This document shows, piece after piece, positions 16,031 to 23,276 of a stretch of 23,475 nucleotides of DNA. Position numbers and translations under genes: made by a program. Source of the stretch: a virus; the IMG/VR virus record IMGVR_UViG_3300021170_000070, positions 1 to 23,475 of that record. The stretch is one strand, 5' to 3'. Below the pieces are notes generated by a model, which did not search any database, was not told where the DNA came from, and saw only the letters and a program-made list of their open reading frames with translations. The number at the start of each line of letters is the position of its first letter. The stretch's first letter is position 1.

Positions 16031-16070
16031 AAGCCCTCCTCTGCGTTTCTCTCAGAGAAGGATGACTGGA

Positions 16071-16826
16071 ATGCTTTTTCCGGAATATGAGCGCACGCTT
16101 GTAGAGCAAGCGGGGATAAAGTGCTATTTGCGGGAGGGGACGTCTGACTTTGATGTCTGGCGGGAGAACATTACTGATGCTGAAATCGCCAAGCATTTGA
16201 TAATCACAGAAGGTCAGAAGTGGCTGGATATTGGAGGTTACATTGGCACCTTCGCGTTGTTTGTATTGCAGCGTAAGGCACAGGTAGTGTCCTTTGAGCC
16301 TTGGGATTTGCATGTGAAGATTTACAAGGAGCACATGCTTTTGAACGGTTTTACTGCTAATATTGTGTCATTAGGCGTGCTGCAGACCCCTCCTAAGTCG
16401 AGGAAGACTGCTCTGATATTGGCAAAGCCTCATCGTAAGGCCGGTAAGCCGTTTATTAATTTGGCTAAGGCGACGGTCATAAATCGGTGGAAGAGTGCGC
16501 ATCCAGCTATTGAAGTTCCGGTAATTTCTTTCAAGGAGGCGGTGCGCCTTGCGGTGAAGGGTTTAGGTAAGACCGGTAGCTGGAATTTGAAAATCGATGC
16601 CGAAGGTCCTGAAGGTGATATTTTGGAATTTGGAGACCTTTCGCTTTTCCAACAGATATTTTTTGAATATCACTATCAGCAGGCTGACCCAACTTACGAG
16701 CGCGCTCCAAGGATAATCAAGCGCCTTGAGGAGTTGGGGTTTGTTGTGAAGTTGAGTAAGCCACTCCACAAGCCGAAGTGGTGGAGTGATACAGCTTTCT
16801 TGTGTTGGGCAAAAAGGAGTTCATGA
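16071..16826 (+). CDS. FkbM-family methyltransferase
   Basis: The start at 16071 is preferred because AAGGA lies eight bases upstream; the ATG at 16062 directly touches its AGAAGG. Of 251 residues, 53-60 (DIGGYIGT) form the SAM-binding loop, 75-77 (FEP) the acidic strand end, and 174-183 ([10 protein letters not shown]) the FkbM signature. The family mostly O-methylates sugars and polyketides. Placement directly before an inositol-phosphate synthase, in the base-modification block, suggests methylation of a hydroxyl on a DNA decoration. This substrate is inference. The stop overlaps the next start as ATGA. Confidence 0.8.
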
Positions 16827-17908
16827 TGGTTGACCCGATTCGAGTTGGCATTGTAGGTGTAGGCAATTGTGCAAATTCCCTACTTCAGGGGCTGCAATAT
16901 TATGCTACTGATGACCTCCCGCGAATGGGGTTGGTGCGGCCAAAGGTTGGCCCATATAGCGTGCGGGATATCAAGGTGGTTGCCGCTTTCGACGTGACGG
17001 AGACCAAGGTTGGAGCCGATTTATCAGAGGCCATTTGGGCGTACCCAAACAGCACGTTTCAGTTTGCGGAGGTTCCTCAGCAAGAGGTAGAGGTTCGGCG
17101 GGGGCCCACCCTTGATGGAATTGGACAGTATATCAAAGGGTGGGTGAAGGAATCGACTCGGCCTCCATGTGATGTGATCAAGGAGCTAGAGGCTGTTAAG
17201 GCCCAGGTTCTAATTAACTATTTGCCTGTGGGCTCTGAAGAGGCAGCTTGGTTCTATGCGAAGACGGCTATGGGAGCGGGTTGTGCCTTTATCAATTGTA
17301 TGCCGACGTTCATCGCGAGTAATCTTCACCGAGCGCAGGAGTTTGAGAAAGTAGGGCTTCCGATCATAGGTGATGATATCAAGTCTCAGGTGGGGGCAAC
17401 AATCGTCCACCGTGTTCTTGCGCAGCTGTTTCGTGACCGGGGTGTTTTATTGGATCGCACGTACCAATTGAATGTGGGCGGGAATGGAGATTTTCGCAAT
17501 ATGTTAGAGCGTGAACGCCTCGTCAGTAAGAAGCTCTCGAAGACGGAGGCAGTTGTCTCCATTTCAGGGGTAGACTTTGCCGGGAAAGATGTCCATATTG
17601 GTCCTTCTGATTATGTGGAATGGCTTGGCGATAAAAAGATTGCGTATATTCGTCTTGAAGGGCGAGGTTTTGGTGGAGCCCCTTTGAACGCCGAGGTAAA
17701 GCTCGAGGTTTGGGATTCACCCAATAGTGCTGGAATAGTGATAGATGCAATTCGCTGTGCAAAGATTGCCTTGGATCGTGGTCAAGGTGGGACTATTGAA
17801 GAGCCTAGTGCGTATTTCATGAAGCGGCCCCCGAAGCAGTATGATGATGACGTCGCGCTGGATATGCTGGAGGCGTACATTACGGGGCTCCCCGTCGCGG
17901 CTGAGTAG
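16826..17908 (+). CDS. Myo-inositol-phosphate synthase homologue
   Basis: The ATG at 16826 has AAGGAG six to seven bases upstream; a second ATG at 16823 is closer. The 360-residue protein matches the compact archaeal/actinobacterial type: NAD-binding [12 protein letters not shown] near 11-22, [15 protein letters not shown] from 182, NVGGNGDF at 216-223, [11 protein letters not shown] at 269-279 with the conserved lysine, and [11 protein letters not shown] at 293-303. The enzyme turns glucose 6-phosphate into inositol phosphate through oxidation, aldol closure and reduction. All visible signature segments are kept, so it should be active. A role in making a DNA-modification precursor is inferred from the neighbours. 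A part in inositol supply to the host is the alternative. Confidence 0.85.
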
Positions 17909-19420
17909 ATGCGTCTGACTTTCACCACGGAAGAGCACTGGAAGTTCCTTTCCGAATTCGCGCGTTGGGAGTGTAAGGCTGGAGGGCCTGACCCGCATAT
18001 GGTGCTCTCAGGAGAAATGAGTAAGCATCTTCCATTGGAGGAGCGGCTCTGGCGTGGAGGGTGTTACATAGCGGTCTATAATTCTCCATACGCCGAAGTC
18101 CTTTGGCGTATGTGGGATTGGGAGAGGATTCAGAAGACTAAAGAAGCTGAGCTCTTCAACTGGCTGACGGCTAATTTCAAGCGCATCACGATGCGGCGTG
18201 AGCGACGATGTGTCCGCCGCCCTGATTGGATGACGGAGTACCTCCAAGGCTATGCACGATTTGTGGTTACGCTTCCGGAGTTGATAGATTCCCTTGATGG
18301 CTCTCCGGAAGAGAATTTCGAGCTCGTCTGGGATGCAGTATTGACTGTCACTCGGCTTGGGCGCTATGTTGCTATTAAGCTTTTGGAATACTACCGCCGT
18401 TATTGTGGAGCTGATGTTAGACACCCAGATATCCGTCCGGCTGGAGGGATTTCGCCTCGTGAGATGCTTGGTTATCTTTGGCCCGATTATCCTCAGGTTG
18501 CTGAGCATGACGATTCGCCGGAAGTCTTGGCTCTCGTCAACAAGCTTGTATGTATCACGCAGAAGCGATTGTTGGATGAGTTCGGTGTAGATCTTGATAT
18601 GTTTCAGTTGCAGGTTATGCTCTGTGATTATAAACAATCTTGGAAGGGCTTGCGGCAGTATCCAGGGCGCTCGATCGATTCTGAAATGGTTTATGCATTG
18701 AAGATGGAGCAGGAGTGGAATACAACTTCTGAGATTTGGCCTATCCGTAAGAGGCTTTTCCCGCATGAGCATTTGGGTGAGTTGCAGGGTTGGGACGTGG
18801 TACGGAAGGATGTAGCCGAGGTTCTTGGGACGCAGGGGTATACTTGGACCGACCTGAAGTATGACTATAAGGCGACAAAAGATCTTTCCAACCCAGTCAA
18901 GCGATTCAAGTTACCAACGATGGTTGTGCACGAAAAAGGTGTCTACGAGATCTTGCCTGATCAGCTTTACCAAGCCGGAAATTGGAAACGGTATGATTTA
19001 GCTGGTTGTAAGGCGAGGATCCAGCAGTTCGGCTTGACGGGTGTGGTCAACCTTTGGCAGGAAGACCTCCGGTTGGAAAAGCTCTTCAAATGGTATCGTC
19101 ACACACCAATTCCGGATGGAGCTAGTTTCCCAGAGGAAGACCTAGCTGATCTAGTCCAGGAATTGATTGAGCATTTGCAAGGTGGTGGGCGAGTTCTGGT
19201 CATGTGTCATGCGGGTCGTAACCGTTCCGGGCTTGTTTCTGCGCTCGTGGTGCGAAAGTTTTTAGGCTGTTCGGGCCAGCAGGCTCTGCAATGGGTCAGA
19301 GCGGCCCGCCCGCGCGCCGTAGCGAATGAAGCCTTTGAAGGGTACCTGGCTGGATTGGGCGCTCAGCGGGCTGTTAGAGCCGTCCCTATACAGGCTCCAA
19401 GGCCGGGGTATTTGTTTTGA
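17909..19420 (+). CDS. aGPT-PPlase-like base-modification domain fused to dual-specificity phosphatase
   Basis: The ATG at 17909 directly follows the previous stop. Residues 1-300 carry GGCYIAVYNSPYAEVLW, TRLGRYVAIKLLEYYRRYCG, RPAGGISPREMLGYLWPD and QYPGRSIDSEMVYALK. I recall this pattern from the alpha-glutamyl/putrescinyl thymine pyrophosphorylase clade 2 proteins of hypermodifying phages. Residues 355-485 form a dual-specificity phosphatase domain with CHAGRNRSG at 433-441, giving the C-x5-R loop (Cys433, Arg439). A fused phosphatase could remove a phosphate or pyrophosphate from a modification intermediate. The stop overlaps the next start as TTGA. The C-terminal domain call is firmer than the N-terminal one. 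Confidence 0.7.
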   Translation: MRLTFTTEEHWKFLSEFARWECKAGGPDPHMVLSGEMSKHLPLEERLWRGGCYIAVYNSPYAEVLWRMWDWERIQKTKEAELFNWLTANFKRITMRRERRCVRRPDWMTEYLQGYARFVVTLPELIDSLDGSPEENFELVWDAVLTVTRLGRYVAIKLLEYYRRYCGADVRHPDIRPAGGISPREMLGYLWPDYPQVAEHDDSPEVLALVNKLVCITQKRLLDEFGVDLDMFQLQVMLCDYKQSWKGLRQYPGRSIDSEMVYALKMEQEWNTTSEIWPIRKRLFPHEHLGELQGWDVVRKDVAEVLGTQGYTWTDLKYDYKATKDLSNPVKRFKLPTMVVHEKGVYEILPDQLYQAGNWKRYDLAGCKARIQQFGLTGVVNLWQEDLRLEKLFKWYRHTPIPDGASFPEEDLADLVQELIEHLQGGGRVLVMCHAGRNRSGLVSALVVRKFLGCSGQQALQWVRAARPRAVANEAFEGYLAGLGAQRAVRAVPIQAPRPGYLF

Positions 19421-19813
19421 TTCTCAATCTCAGATCTACAAATGGAGGAGGAAAAAGCACGCTCGTTCGGGGTGTCTTAGACCGCTTCCCGTCGCGCCCT
19501 ATATACGGTATTCTTGGCCCGCGTAAGCCTGAGACCTATCAGCTCAACCTCTCTAGAAACCGCTCGCTCGTGGGGAAAGGATTCGGTCTGTCTGTTTTTG
19601 GATACGTCTTTTGAAGAGTGTGTTGTTGCGGTCAAGCAGCGCCGGTCTGAGCGCGAGGATGGACGTGAGTTCAAGCTGAAGAATATTACGCAAGCCTACA
19701 AGGGATTTCAGCGGGTTCGTAGAACTTTAATACAGGAAGATGTGGTTCGCTGCATGGACATTTCCAGGCAGAATGGTTTGCAGGTAATCCTCCAGTTATT
19801 AGAGGAAGCATGA
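19417..19813 (+). pseudogene. P-loop kinase with internal deletion, paralogue of the next gene
   Basis: The frame starts at TTG 19417 with MILNLRSTNGGGKSTLVRGV (Walker A) and IYGILGPRKPETYQLNL, closely matching the start of the following gene. It then loses its partner sequence near 19550 and stops at 19614. A second frame carries WGKDSVCLFLDTSFEECVVA and the family C-terminus to 19813. Compared with the neighbour, about 70-75 residues of the middle are missing and the phase is lost. This may be a decayed tandem duplicate or an assembly collapse between similar sequences. If intact it would be a nucleotide or 5-hydroxymethyluracil kinase. Confidence 0.7.
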
Positions 19814-20382
19814 TTTTGAACCTTAGGGGCAATCATGCTTCGGGAAAGACGACCGTTGTGCGTAAGCTCTTGGCACATTTTCCTTCCAAGCCAATATTTG
19901 GGGCTCTCGGTCCGAGAATGCCGGAAGCATATTTATGCGAGACTGGGCGCTGTCCGTTCTATATTCTCGGCCCTTATAATGTCCCGGGGATGGCGGGGTG
20001 TGATTATGTCACGATGCGGGGAATGGCTTTGATGCTTGAGCTTTTGGACAAGTATGTGTCCAAGGGTGATATTCTCTATGAAGGTGTGCTTCTTTCGGTC
20101 AGGATCTTGGCTCCGACTATTGGTAAGTGGTTACTGGAACACAAAGACGATGTGCGTATTCTGATCTTGGATACAACCTTGGAGCAGTGCCTTGCGGCGC
20201 TGAAGGAACGGCAGGATAAGTCTGCGTATCGTCCGGGAAAGGATGATACGTTGCTCCAGGTTCAGCAGCGGCAGTTCGAACGGGTGAAGAAGCATTTGCA
20301 GGGGCAAGGCTTCGGTATTGAGTATGTGTCACGGGACAAAGCGGTTAAGAGAATCATCGAATGTCTGAAGCAGCCCCACTGA
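19810..20382 (+). CDS. P-loop kinase, candidate 5-hmdU DNA kinase
   Basis: The ATG at 19810 overlaps the previous stop. The 190-residue protein has Walker A GNHASGKTT at 7-15, ILGPYNVPGMAGCDYVTMRG near 52-71, LYEGVLLS near 89-96, and a LILDTTLEQCLAALKERQ strand-helix unit near 117-134. This is a nucleotide-kinase-like family common in phages. In thymidine-hypermodifying phages, 5-hydroxymethyluracil in DNA is activated by a P-loop kinase before the transferase acts. Its coupling to the base-modification genes supports that role. Phosphorylation of free hydroxymethyl-dUMP is the alternative. The stop lies inside the next gene. Confidence 0.65.
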   Translation: MILNLRGNHASGKTTVVRKLLAHFPSKPIFGALGPRMPEAYLCETGRCPFYILGPYNVPGMAGCDYVTMRGMALMLELLDKYVSKGDILYEGVLLSVRILAPTIGKWLLEHKDDVRILILDTTLEQCLAALKERQDKSAYRPGKDDTLLQVQQRQFERVKKHLQGQGFGIEYVSRDKAVKRIIECLKQPH

Positions 20383-21239
20383 TTGAATGGGTAGCCGCGC
20401 GGGAAGCCTTACGCAAATGTAAGGAGTCTGGTGCTCCGCCGCCGTGGACAACAGATCCAATATTGCAGCAGTACAGGTTTACGAATATTCGGAGAAGAGA
20501 CGACCGCGTCAGTCGCTGGCTTCGACAGAACGTTCTAACTGAAGCACATTTAAACCAAGGCTTCGCGTCTTTCATAGAGTTTACGGCATTCTGCCGATGG
20601 TGCAACTGGCCACCTACGATTGCTGTAATTATGCAGGAAGGTTTGTATCATCCTGTGCAGAAGATTGATTGGAAGGCGGTTGCGAGATGTATGGACCGTT
20701 TCAAGAAAGAACATAAGAAGTGTTGGACTTCGGCATATATGGTGATTGGTCCGAAAGGATCCAACAAGTCAAAAGCTCACTTTATTGCAACGAAAGTTGT
20801 TGGTAAAAGCATTGGTGGAGCTCTTGACCGAATTGAGAAAGCTCTCCAGACTAAACAGCGTCGAGAAGTATGGTTAGTTTTGATGAGCCTGATGGGTTGG
20901 GGAAGTTTCATGTCTGGGCAGGTGGTTGATGATTGGTCTTGGACACCGTTACTCGCTGGTGCGCAAGACGAGAATCTTTGGGCTCCGCAAGGCCCAGGGT
21001 CTATTCGGGGGTTCAATCGGCTGAAAGGACTCCCGCTCAAGACTTGCCATAAGGAAGAGGAGTGGTGTGCTCAGCTTCAAGTTTGGCGACAACAAATAAT
21101 AGACGCGCTCGGTTCTGAATTTTCAGACTTGTCACTGATGGACGTTCAAAATACACTTTGCGAGTATTCGAAATATAGCAAAACCCAGTTGGGTGAAGGC
21201 CGACCGCGTTCCAGGTACAAGCCGGAGACTGCGTTTTGA
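20361..21239 (+). CDS. HhH/aGPT-PPlase-type DNA base hypermodification protein
   Basis: The ATG at 20361 overlaps the kinase gene by 22 bases. The 292-residue protein shows TDPILQQYRFTNIRRRDDRV (31-50), WGSFMSGQVVDDW (180-192), GPGSIRGFNRL (211-221) and DVQNTLCEYSKY (261-272), ending in a basic GEGRPRSRYKP. These blocks are the hallmark of the helical proteins called aGPT-PPlase clade 3 or the helical domain associated with 5-hmdU DNA kinase, which are related to helix-hairpin-helix DNA glycosylases. They are thought to replace the pyrophosphate on activated 5-hydroxymethyluracil with another group. Which group is used here is unknown. Confidence 0.75.
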   Translation: MSEAAPLIEWVAAREALRKCKESGAPPPWTTDPILQQYRFTNIRRRDDRVSRWLRQNVLTEAHLNQGFASFIEFTAFCRWCNWPPTIAVIMQEGLYHPVQKIDWKAVARCMDRFKKEHKKCWTSAYMVIGPKGSNKSKAHFIATKVVGKSIGGALDRIEKALQTKQRREVWLVLMSLMGWGSFMSGQVVDDWSWTPLLAGAQDENLWAPQGPGSIRGFNRLKGLPLKTCHKEEEWCAQLQVWRQQIIDALGSEFSDLSLMDVQNTLCEYSKYSKTQLGEGRPRSRYKPETAF

Positions 21240-21754
21240 CCCGCGATGAAGTCTTTGCTACACCGCGTTTGGCAGGGCAGGTACAGAGGTATCATACGTG
21301 GAGTATGCACCGACAGCAATCGGTTGGCGAGCATACTTGGCAGACTATGCGAATTTATTGGCAGATTTGGGGGCCACTTCCGCCCGACGTTTGTACGCAT
21401 TTGATTTGGCATGATGCTGGGGAGCTTGTTCTTGGTGACTTGCCCTTCCCGGTCAAGAAGAACAACCCGCGTTTGAAGCATGAGTGTGATGTGATTGAAA
21501 GGCAAGCCTTAGTTAAAATGATTGGAGGCAATATTGAAGACCTTATCATTTTGTCTGAAGAGGAAAAGCATCGGGTCAAGATTTGCGATCTGATTGATAT
21601 GCTAGAGATGGGGCAGACTGAGTTCAAGATGGGCAATCAGTATGCTCTTCCTATCATCAACGACGTGCGTTCTGAACTTGGAAAGTGCTTAGTGAATTTC
21701 AGTCATACCGAGCGCGAGAAAATCATGTATTATGTCGAGAGGTTTGCGTCGTGA
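21236..21754 (+). CDS. HD-domain 5'-deoxynucleotidase
   Basis: The TTG at 21236 overlaps the previous stop as TTGA. The 172-residue protein has the HD-domain ligands in order: His33 in SVGEHTW, His59-Asp60 in LIWHDAGELVLGD with Glu63 and Asp68, and a late Asp in KICDLIDMLEM (118 or 121). It resembles YfbR-type enzymes, which dephosphorylate deoxynucleoside monophosphates. In hydroxymethyluracil phages an enzyme of this kind can lower dTMP so that thymine is not incorporated. That role is inferred from the neighbours. The stop overlaps the next start as GTGA. Confidence 0.8.
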   Translation: MTRDEVFATPRLAGQVQRYHTWSMHRQQSVGEHTWQTMRIYWQIWGPLPPDVCTHLIWHDAGELVLGDLPFPVKKNNPRLKHECDVIERQALVKMIGGNIEDLIILSEEEKHRVKICDLIDMLEMGQTEFKMGNQYALPIINDVRSELGKCLVNFSHTEREKIMYYVERFAS

Positions 21755-22803
21755 AAGTCTTACACGTCCGGAATGTTAACCAAGCTTTACAGGAAGGCTT
21801 GAAATACCTCTATGAGCATGGCGTTCGTGAGGATAGCCGCGCCGGCCCCGTACTAGTCTCTCCGGTTCCGGTGACGACGGTCTATTCTCATCCGCAAGAG
21901 CGTGTGTTGTTCTCTGCTGCCCGCGATGCTAACCCAGTATTTCATTTGATGGAAAGCCTGTGGCTTTTGGCTGGTAGGAACGATGCTCGGTGGCTGGATC
22001 AATTCGTGCATGATTTCTCTTTGCGATTTGCTGAAGAGGATGGCACACTTCACGGAAGTTATGGATATAGGTGGTTGCATCATTTTGAAATGGAAGGTGG
22101 AGGACATCCTAATCCGAGAATGCCAAATCAGTTGAGCATGATTGCTTCTATGCTCACGAAGAACCCGCAGGATCGTCAAGCTGTGTTGACCATGTGGGAC
22201 CCCGTATCTGATCTGGGTATCCCGGTTCGTGACAAGCCTTGTAATACGCATTGCTATTTTAGAGTTCGAAGAATTCACTACTTATCAGATAATTCGGATA
22301 ATAGAGTTCTTGACATCACCGTCTGCTGTCGATCAAACGATTTGATTTGGGGGCTTGCCGGTTCAAATGCTGTGCAGTTCGCGTTTTTGCAGGAGTATCT
22401 CGCAGCGCGAATTGGTGTGGGCGTCGGAACTTATTATCAAATCAGCAACAATTTTCATGCCTATCTGGATGTATTGGATAAGCTTGAAGGCAAGGCAATT
22501 CTTGAGGAAGGTTATACCAAGGACTACCCTGGCGAGGTCGTCCCGCTTGTAAAAGACCCAAACCGCTTTGATACAGACCTTCATCGGTTCTTTGCTGAAG
22601 GGTGTGTTGCAGCGCACACGAACGGTTATGCCAACCCGTTCTTTACCAACATCGCGGTGCCGCTCTATTGGGTGCACCGGAACTGGAAGGTGAAGAATAT
22701 CAAGACTGCGCTGGCGCTCTTGGAGACGGTTCAAGACTCGGATTGGAGACTATCTGCCGAGCAGTGGATTTCACGACGTATGAGTAAGAAGGCAATGAGG
22801 TGA
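21751..22803 (+). CDS. dUMP hydroxymethylase-type thymidylate synthase homologue
   Basis: GTG at 21751 overlaps the previous stop and gives 350 residues; the longer frame from 21685 lies inside the HD gene. The thymidylate synthase fold is clear: NPVFHLMESLWLLAG at 61-75, the nucleophile Cys164 in DKPCNTHCYF, RSNDLIWGLAGSN at 194-206 and YYQISNNFHAYL from about 228. Asn206 takes the place of the uracil-reading Asn of thymidylate synthase, where dCMP hydroxymethylases have Asp, so dUMP is the likely substrate. It could make 5-hydroxymethyl-dUMP or dTMP; the modification genes favour the first. Confidence 0.8.
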   Translation: MKVLHVRNVNQALQEGLKYLYEHGVREDSRAGPVLVSPVPVTTVYSHPQERVLFSAARDANPVFHLMESLWLLAGRNDARWLDQFVHDFSLRFAEEDGTLHGSYGYRWLHHFEMEGGGHPNPRMPNQLSMIASMLTKNPQDRQAVLTMWDPVSDLGIPVRDKPCNTHCYFRVRRIHYLSDNSDNRVLDITVCCRSNDLIWGLAGSNAVQFAFLQEYLAARIGVGVGTYYQISNNFHAYLDVLDKLEGKAILEEGYTKDYPGEVVPLVKDPNRFDTDLHRFFAEGCVAAHTNGYANPFFTNIAVPLYWVHRNWKVKNIKTALALLETVQDSDWRLSAEQWISRRMSKKAMR

Positions 22804-22811
22804 GGCTTCCG

Positions 22812-23276
22812 ATGCCGGCTAATGACGAACGGGTTCCTAAACATTATCGTTCGGATGGGTATATTCATTGGGATCTGATTATCGAAACACACACAGAATA
22901 TCTTGCGGCGAACGCAACAAAGTACATTTCGCGTTGGCGTAAGAAGAATGGCCTCCAAGATTTACAGAAGGCGGTGCACTATATCGATAAGTTGATTGAG
23001 TCAGCAAAGTTGGGGTTTATTGAGTCTCCTATGCGCGTATTGCCTGAGATAAATGAACCCGATTTTGCAGAAGTTGCGAAGTTCTGTTTGGCTAACAATC
23101 TTTCGGAGCGAGAGCAAATTGCGGTTACGGAATTGATTTTATGGAGGAACACCGACGATTTGGAAAATGCTAGGGATACGGTGAATTTATTGATTGAAGA
23201 AGCTCAATCCAAACCCGTCCCCGCAACTGACTCTAACAAACATGCCGACCGCGCTAAGGACCCAACAGGATGGTAA
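22812..23276 (+). CDS. DUF3310 protein
   Basis: The ATG at 22812 has TGAGG six bases upstream; a GTG at 22800 overlapping the previous stop is the alternative. The N-terminal half contains VPKHYRSDGYIHWDLI and NATKYISRWRKKNG followed by LQDLQKAVHYIDKL, the pattern of DUF3310, a small domain frequent beside phage nucleotide-metabolism genes. The second half is helical (NEPDFAEVAKFCLANNLSE) and the tail is polar. The function of the family is not established. Confidence 0.8.
   Translation: MPANDERVPKHYRSDGYIHWDLIIETHTEYLAANATKYISRWRKKNGLQDLQKAVHYIDKLIESAKLGFIESPMRVLPEINEPDFAEVAKFCLANNLSEREQIAVTELILWRNTDDLENARDTVNLLIEEAQSKPVPATDSNKHADRAKDPTGW

Follow-up and report, generated by a model that had tools for sequence, protein, structure and literature searches.

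Why should a virus keep a gene for inositol-phosphate synthase inside an operon for DNA base modification? The question is raised by the 23,475-nucleotide stretch of IMG/VR virus record IMGVR_UViG_3300021170_000070 analysed here (the window), in which eight genes on the + strand (16062–23276) form one run, their ends overlapping by a few bases or abutting. They include genes for a myo-inositol-phosphate synthase (MIPS, also Ino1), an ADDT-family DNA transferase fused to a DSP-type phosphatase, a P-loop kinase and a thymidylate synthase (TS)-family protein. A preliminary description of this DNA, made from the letters alone, had assigned the synthase to an operon for thymidine hypermodification; as far as is known, the hypermodifications of this pathway have amino acids or polyamines as their building blocks. 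The linkage of the genes is confirmed and is broader than the single window, since it recurs in many other viruses. The best-supported reading, to which we give a probability of about 0.6, is that the operon would direct thymidine hypermodification with an inositol-derived adduct and not an amino acid.

Scans with single sequences yielded one contig for MIPS and two for ADDT-DSP, and profile scans were needed. With a profile of three phage MIPS, 109 viral relatives were retrieved, the best 80 of which were used for a survey of loci. De-replication at 97% MIPS identity and addition of Mendera and Cr30 gave 21 loci of the type found in the window (window-type) and 43 distant ones. In 20 of the 21 non-redundant window-type viral loci, MIPS has ADDT, DSP and kinase genes all at a distance of no more than 3.5 kb, the commonest gene order being MIPS-ADDT-DSP-kinase-TS; the same distance also includes a TS gene in 13/21, a gene for HMUDK_hel (the helical partner of the kinase) in 7/21 and an HD gene in 2/21. 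Single-protein Pfam scans agree with this: of 21 transferases adjoining viral MIPS, 19 belong to PF18724 and 2 to aGPT-Pplase3. A QueC-like gene takes the place of the ADDT-DSP-kinase set in the one window-type locus that lacks it (L031; the prefix L denotes our locus numbers). As a control, the 80 bacterial MIPS loci that matched the window best among those listed were examined with up to 6 kb of flank, and no ADDT, DSP, kinase or other gene of this kind was found. The linkage of MIPS with modification genes is more than chance; the Fisher values computed for it ignore relatedness. MIPS therefore belongs to the operon, as had been claimed; and where the preliminary description had proposed to look for the same gene set in other phages, with the prospect of a synthase never linked to it in relatives, the set was found to recur.

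The survey was also run in reverse, starting from the ADDT subfamily. This profile was seeded solely with MIPS-linked ADDTs, and it led to 71 viral loci, among them the longer parent contig of the window (see below) and several short fragments; the two surveys share contigs. DSP was found in 70 of these loci, the kinase in 53, TS in 38 and MIPS in 30; further genes were TET/JBP (18), radical SAM (12) and FkbM (10). Removal of near copies left 60 ADDT loci, 59 with DSP and 28 with MIPS. Where both flanks reached 4 kb or more (40 loci), 39 had DSP. All 30 MIPS-bearing loci possess both DSP and kinase, 25 of them have TS, and in 22 the MIPS frame abuts or overlaps that of ADDT (gap of <100 bp between open frames). 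The core is thus the ADDT-DSP-kinase set, to which MIPS is joined in about half of the loci. Those without MIPS may use host inositol or another donor, or may be cut short by the end of the contig. Two side observations concern genes next to MIPS: a radical SAM-SPASM gene separates MIPS from ADDT at L012:9668-10633 and from L025:3478 onward, which could point to additional processing of the ring, and a gene of a TET-associated glycosyltransferase family stands immediately before MIPS at L079:9108-10037.

Neither DSP nor MIPS, nor the small HAD-like proteins of cluster c3 described below, was detected by hidden Markov model (HMM) search in the loci of 11 deposited phages that have ADDTs of other kinds (M6, PhiW-14, P26218, RHph_TM26, CaiB, Vibrio 1.244.A, SH-Ab 15599, Ab18, CN1, ECML-4 and MW202655), nine of which did show a match for TS, kinase, HMUDK_hel or HD. 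In RHph_TM26, a gene annotated as polynucleotide kinase/phosphatase precedes the ADDT gene, so that a phosphatase-like neighbour of ADDT is not unique to the new type. Amino-acid-tailoring genes were sought with six queries (M6 gp049, gp052 and gp053, PaMx11 gp47 and gp48, and the FAD oxidoreductase of RHph_TM26; tblastn, 1e-5) and were found in 0/25 window-type MIPS loci and 0/71 ADDT loci, although the queries did match their own relatives in the deposited set. As this hallmark of the amino-acid type was not found, the system is to be regarded as a variant of thymidine hypermodification that is not of that type. The window shares with the M6 and PaMx11 clusters a TS-family hydroxymethylase, a candidate P-loop kinase, HMUDK_hel, an HD protein, an ADDT-fold transferase and a PolA gene nearby; it differs by the addition of MIPS and DSP and by the tailoring genes not found. 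Its subfamily of transferases is distant from the ADDT of M6 (gp051), which matched none of the 71 new ADDT loci by tblastn. Weak tblastn matches connect the window ADDT to the aGPT-Pplase2-type proteins of the TET/JBP clusters in Gordonia, Rhodococcus and Mycobacterium phages, whereas no HMM match for MIPS or DSP was obtained in Gordonia CaiB, the one such locus examined. A literature search, which had the key pathway papers outside its reach, found nothing that links inositol with hypermodified DNA in phages. By the family matches of its TS-family, HMUDK_hel and ADDT proteins, the operon belongs to thymidine hypermodification, as proposed in the preliminary description, and it represents a new variant, with inositol-related genes.

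The window MIPS (16826–17908) is predicted to be intact and of actinobacterial type. It matches PF01658 with 117.5 bits (cut-off 27; 4e-34), and its nearest PDB match, over the full length, is the Mycobacterium tuberculosis inositol-3-phosphate synthase (1gr0, E 3e-133), from which it differs in being phage-borne, in lying inside a DNA-modification operon and in scoring below the TIGR03450 cut-off. Bacterial genome proteins, among the matches listed, are at most 63% identical to it. Of 16 positions inspected in and around the active site (the lysines and their neighbours), 13 are invariant across 90 viral and 80 bacterial MIPS sequences (K236, K292 and K313 vary).

The ADDT-DSP fusion (17909–19420) is 503 residues long. 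Its ADDT part (about residues 1–340) scores 39.1 bits with PF18724 (cut-off 26.2; 9e-10), and structural modelling points to it as the likely transferase of the operon. An AlphaFold2 model (pLDDT, predicted local distance difference test, 87) superimposes on the PaMx11 5-phosphomethyl-2'-deoxyuridine glycinyltransferase (8z2m) with Z 16.9 over 241 residues, the next entry reaching 9.8. Foldseek on its own gave E 0.03 with probability 1.00 for the same pair, a search of PDB sequences with the ADDT profile put an ADDT entry at E 0.015, and profile-profile comparison of the new subfamily with PaMx11 gp46 gave E 4e-6. What the window protein has in common with gp46 (PUGT; 8z2m, 8z2n) is the fold, together with ERR, G-x5-K-like and C-x-x-K stretches as judged by eye; the differences are an identity of 13%, the subfamily's own invariant DIRP, SPR and YPGRSxDSEL motifs and the DSP that follows ADDT in it. 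The DSP domain (about residues 370–480; DSPc 9e-7) is the likely phosphatase. It carries the C-x5-R signature (CHAGRNR, within CHAGRNRS), the C and R of which are invariant in 16 aligned DSP members; DSPc was matched at E ≤0.01 in 15 of 16 tested, and a profile of the domain retrieves DSP structures in the PDB. The two domains are fused in two non-redundant loci, the window and L152.

The remaining genes of the run supply the rest of the pathway by family. The TS-family protein (21751–22803), of dUMP-hydroxymethylase type, scores 72.5 bits with PF00303 (cut-off 24.3; 4e-20) and matches phrog_5131 at 3e-93. Its best cultured relatives are found in M6/YuA-type Pseudomonas phages (about 43% identity; 46% to M6 in alignment), and alignment with M6 indicates that it probably starts at GTG 21751. 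It is preceded by a YfbR-like HD 5'-deoxynucleotidase (21236–21754; PF12917 46.3 bits, cut-off 25.9, 5e-12) and by HMUDK_hel (20361–21239), the helical partner of 5-hydroxymethyldeoxyuridine (5-hmdU) DNA kinase, which scores 137 bits with PF18723 (cut-off 25; 8e-40) and is a homologue of M6 ORF055 (29.8%). The candidate 5-hmdU DNA kinase itself, a P-loop protein (19810–20382; phrog_800 8e-10, PF18748 0.0012), aligns with M6 gp054 at 25%, and an HMM of its relatives matches gp054 at 2e-35. Upstream of it (19417–19813) lies a decayed tandem copy, in which tblastn with the intact kinase recovers residues 1–47 and 112–163: the P-loop start and the C-terminal part are in different frames and the middle is lost, with identical letters in the parent contig. 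Intact tandem kinases occur in L010 and L011, so a duplicate kinase was probably lost in the window. We also observed that candidate 5-hmdU DNA kinases (M6 gp054 and relatives) are annotated as terminase small subunit in several deposited records.

The run begins with an FkbM-family methyltransferase (16062–16826; PF05050 25 bits, cut-off 22.7), which falls just short of the TIGR01444 cut-off (35.4 against 37.7 bits), and ends with a DUF3310 protein (22800–23276; PF11753 5e-10). The preliminary description had coupled FkbM to the operon. The gene is indeed present at its start, but FkbM is uncommon beside MIPS elsewhere (within 3.5 kb in 3/21 window-type and 8/43 distant viral loci), so that methylation would be an optional decoration. 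All the genes that it named (TS-type, HD, P-loop kinase, base-modification proteins, MIPS and FkbM) are present in one run on the + strand; the DSP domain and the decayed kinase copy had not been named. The starts were refined: MIPS from ATG 16826, TS probably from GTG 21751 and FkbM from ATG 16062 or 16071.

Is the association confined to loci of this architecture? Fifty records were checked for ADDT: PF18724 was found in 15 of 48 distant-group records, including that of the cultured Caulobacter phage Cr30 (E 2e-54), the remaining two records being L020 (positive) and L031 (negative). Tet_JBP was detected in 11 of 25 records asked, some of which had no ADDT; the 11 are ten ADDT records and Cr30. 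Within about 10 kb, Cr30 encodes a TET/JBP oxygenase, ADDT, a glycosyltransferase-like protein, MIPS, a small HAD-like protein and a P-loop protein; the oxygenase (KF301602, 59353–60681) is annotated as putative SNF2. Cr30 resembles the window in that MIPS is two genes away from ADDT and that a P-loop protein and a HAD-like phosphatase are encoded near it. The differences are that the oxygenase and an ordinary thymidylate synthase (a strong match, and the sole one to PF00303 in Cr30) replace the dUMP-hydroxymethylase type, that the glycosyltransferase-like gene lies between ADDT and MIPS, and that its ADDT branch is closer to Ackermannviridae-type proteins. For Mendera and Cr30, overlap between lists of phage records with ADDT (100 and 345 records) and with MIPS (18 records) was checked singly. 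Of the 43 distant loci, 29 encode a small HAD-like protein no more than 3.5 kb from MIPS, as against 13 for ADDT, so that in this set a phosphatase goes with MIPS itself. None of 37 small c3 proteins matched the regular expression DxD[G/N/S]T, since they carry DxDGV; their assignment to HAD is thus based on motifs judged by eye and on a match to PHROG 415 (1e-7).

Two further groups of MIPS loci were observed. In 12 loci, the neighbours of a viral MIPS include a QueC-like gene of cluster c22, in many cases joined by genes resembling QueE and GTP cyclohydrolase (L003, which is Mendera, L031, L045, L054, L059, L062, L063, L067, L068, L082, L083 and one more); a link of inositol to 7-deazaguanine modification is possible through these loci. 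In L041, L050, L060, L061 and similar large contigs, MIPS is followed by FkbM, with a TS-family gene, a dUTPase gene and two phrog_17781-type proteins, one of which matches HMUDK_hel weakly; PF18724 was not found in those four loci.

The history of MIPS was examined in a tree of 92 sequences. Window-type viral proteins are intermixed with bacterial ones (Actinomycetota, Pseudomonadota and Chloroflexota) and with one from an archaeal metagenome-assembled genome. Well supported branches of the tree require four or more changes, and a single clade of the 28 ADDT-linked window-type MIPS rows is rejected (AU, approximately unbiased test, p 0.0017); label changes amount to 13, a count that may be too high because truncated contigs were scored as unlinked. 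The tree thus indicates repeated entry of MIPS into ADDT clusters, or its repeated transfer between phages and hosts. Repeated recruitment favours a shared function over hitch-hiking. As to the host, when genome contigs were scanned for the ADDT profile, none of the 36 pattern matches was confirmed as a relative, and the mixed ancestry of MIPS points to no host either; none is therefore named.

How, then, might the operon work? The first steps can be proposed by family, following the 5-hmdU route of thymidine hypermodification as outlined in PMC6449724. The TS-family protein would hydroxymethylate dUMP and the HD protein would lower competing nucleotides, so that 5-hmdU enters DNA; the P-loop kinase and its helical partner would then convert it, in DNA, to 5-phosphomethyl-dU; and MIPS would make inositol phosphate from glucose 6-phosphate. 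The later steps are more conjectural. For ADDT, the nucleophile may be a hydroxyl of inositol or inositol phosphate where its relative uses glycine, so that thymine would bear a cyclitol in ether linkage, and the fused DSP may strip phosphate from donor or product, before or after transfer. FkbM could perhaps O-methylate the ring. The path put forward as hypothetical in the preliminary description is thus supported in part. Serine is reportedly attached via its hydroxyl in phage ViI, and an alcohol nucleophile would thus have precedent in the pathway. The likely purpose would be shielding of phage DNA from host nucleases. Extended to other phages, the proposal is that several lineages would coat their genomes with thymine whose 5-methyl carbon bears myo-inositol (or a derivative) in ether linkage. 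It would be the work of a phage MIPS, together with a phosphatase and a transferase of ADDT fold that takes an alcohol where others take an amino acid. The module would draw its 5-hydroxymethyl pyrimidine from either of two sources, a dUMP hydroxymethylase (window type) or a TET/JBP oxygenase (Cr30 type), with MIPS recruited repeatedly; we consider the odds on this wider proposal to be slightly better than even.

Several observations weigh against an inositol adduct or against the assignments behind it. Of the 71 loci in the ADDT-DSP subfamily, only 30 were found to have MIPS (21 of 40 where both flanks reach 4 kb or more), so that the transferase may accept another donor. DSP goes with ADDT more than with MIPS, and its presence in most MIPS-less loci makes a role confined to inositol phosphate less likely. 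Mendera matches neither PF18724 nor PF00303, and MIPS is found without ADDT there and in other loci. Some loci (L032 and L020) have two phosphatases, HAD and DSP, which leaves the order of steps ambiguous. Certain family scores are low: the window kinase reaches 18.8 bits with PF18748 (cut-off 27), the DSP 29.2 bits with PF00782 (32.8 bits as a domain alone; cut-off 33.5) and MIPS 493 bits with TIGR03450 (mycothiol_INO1; equivalog cut-off 638), and HMUDK_hel was matched in 14 of 27 records, 12 above cut-off. Finally, the HMMs for kinase, DSP, ADDT and HAD were built from the loci that were later counted with them.

These observations have to be set against four other explanations. ADDT might attach an amino acid as in M6 and PaMx11, with MIPS travelling alongside as an auxiliary gene of host metabolism (lipids, thiols or osmolytes). 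In its favour, the name of PF18724 refers to amino-acid transfer, a glycinyltransferase is the closest relative of solved structure, 41 of the 71 ADDT-subfamily loci show no MIPS, and MIPS is of bacterial type; a paper on a Menderavirus counts its MIPS among genes presumably acquired from bacteria (PMC9025141). We nevertheless regard this explanation as unlikely, given that MIPS adjoins ADDT in 20 of the 21 window-type loci and was gained repeatedly, that none of the tested tailoring genes was found, that a DSP is present which was not detected in the 11 loci with other ADDTs, and that the MIPS-ADDT pairing recurs in Cr30-like phages with a TET/JBP oxygenase. Another explanation retains inositol as the donor and has DSP act as an editing enzyme, removing unused phosphate from 5-phosphomethyl-dU in DNA, while a phosphatase of the host or another of the phage makes free inositol. 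It would account for DSP following ADDT with or without MIPS (70/71) and being fused to it in two non-redundant loci, and for the HAD-family hydrolase that adjoins MIPS in L032 and L020 in addition to DSP. However, no DSP was detected in the 11 other loci, which by family also pass through a phosphorylated base, and in the distant set a phosphatase-like gene accompanies MIPS even where ADDT is not near (29 versus 13 of 43); we hold it as a tentative possibility, with the balance on the other side.

The two other explanations concern the form in which the cyclitol would be attached. Inositol might be joined through a phosphodiester, or its phosphate might be kept, giving an anionic base for which DSP would be a trimming or proof-reading enzyme. 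The product of MIPS is phosphorylated, and no classical inositol monophosphatase was seen among the annotated neighbours of window-type MIPS (in ten-protein samples, which do not cover all genes), but the glycinyltransferase relative displaces the base phosphate (according to the title of 8z2m) and the conserved phosphatase argues for phosphate removal, and this form of attachment appears doubtful indeed. Lastly, the MIPS product might be turned, before or after transfer, into a different cyclitol such as an oxidised or amino form. The radical SAM-SPASM gene is placed between MIPS and ADDT in L012 and L025 and radical SAM occurs in 12 of the 71 ADDT loci; among the 30 loci of that survey with MIPS, though, it is present in only two, and there is none inside the window; we consider such a conversion improbable. 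An inositol-derived adduct, with the phosphate probably removed, remains the reading that we prefer.

The window is an exact substring of a longer IMG/VR record, IMGVR_UViG_3300050821_001302 (54,786 bp; L007), referred to above as the parent contig. The two are probably the same phage, so that the longer record is not an independent copy of the operon; part of the window searched by megablast against phages gave no match. The parent contig, which is that of a tailed phage, also encodes a sliding-clamp-like protein, PolA, a clamp loader, a portal, a terminase and head proteins. At L007:7507-10098 we observed a family A DNA polymerase gene, the N-terminal part of which has its matches among uracil-DNA glycosylases; 5-hmdU would be expected in the DNA of this phage. 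Outside the window, at L007:147-1235, there is an adenylosuccinate-synthetase-like gene of phrog_1211 (named 2-aminooxy adenylosuccinate synthetase), and a Z-genome was considered. It was rejected: the protein keeps GDEGKG, whereas PurZ is without the Asp, and ordinary PurA (2.5e-19) is a better match than 6fm1/6fko (about 2e-4), which we take to be phage PurZ entries; moreover, the HD protein of the window matches YfbR in the PDB (4e-5) better than DatZ (just 0.033).

If the proposal is true, a cyclitol donor would add a new chemical class to natural DNA, neutral, rich in hydroxyl groups and possibly methylated. The ADDT fold would then be a general platform for joining nucleophiles to 5-phosphomethyl-dU, and the MIPS genes of phages would gain a function. 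Cr30, being a cultured phage, offers a direct test of the idea of inositol in DNA.

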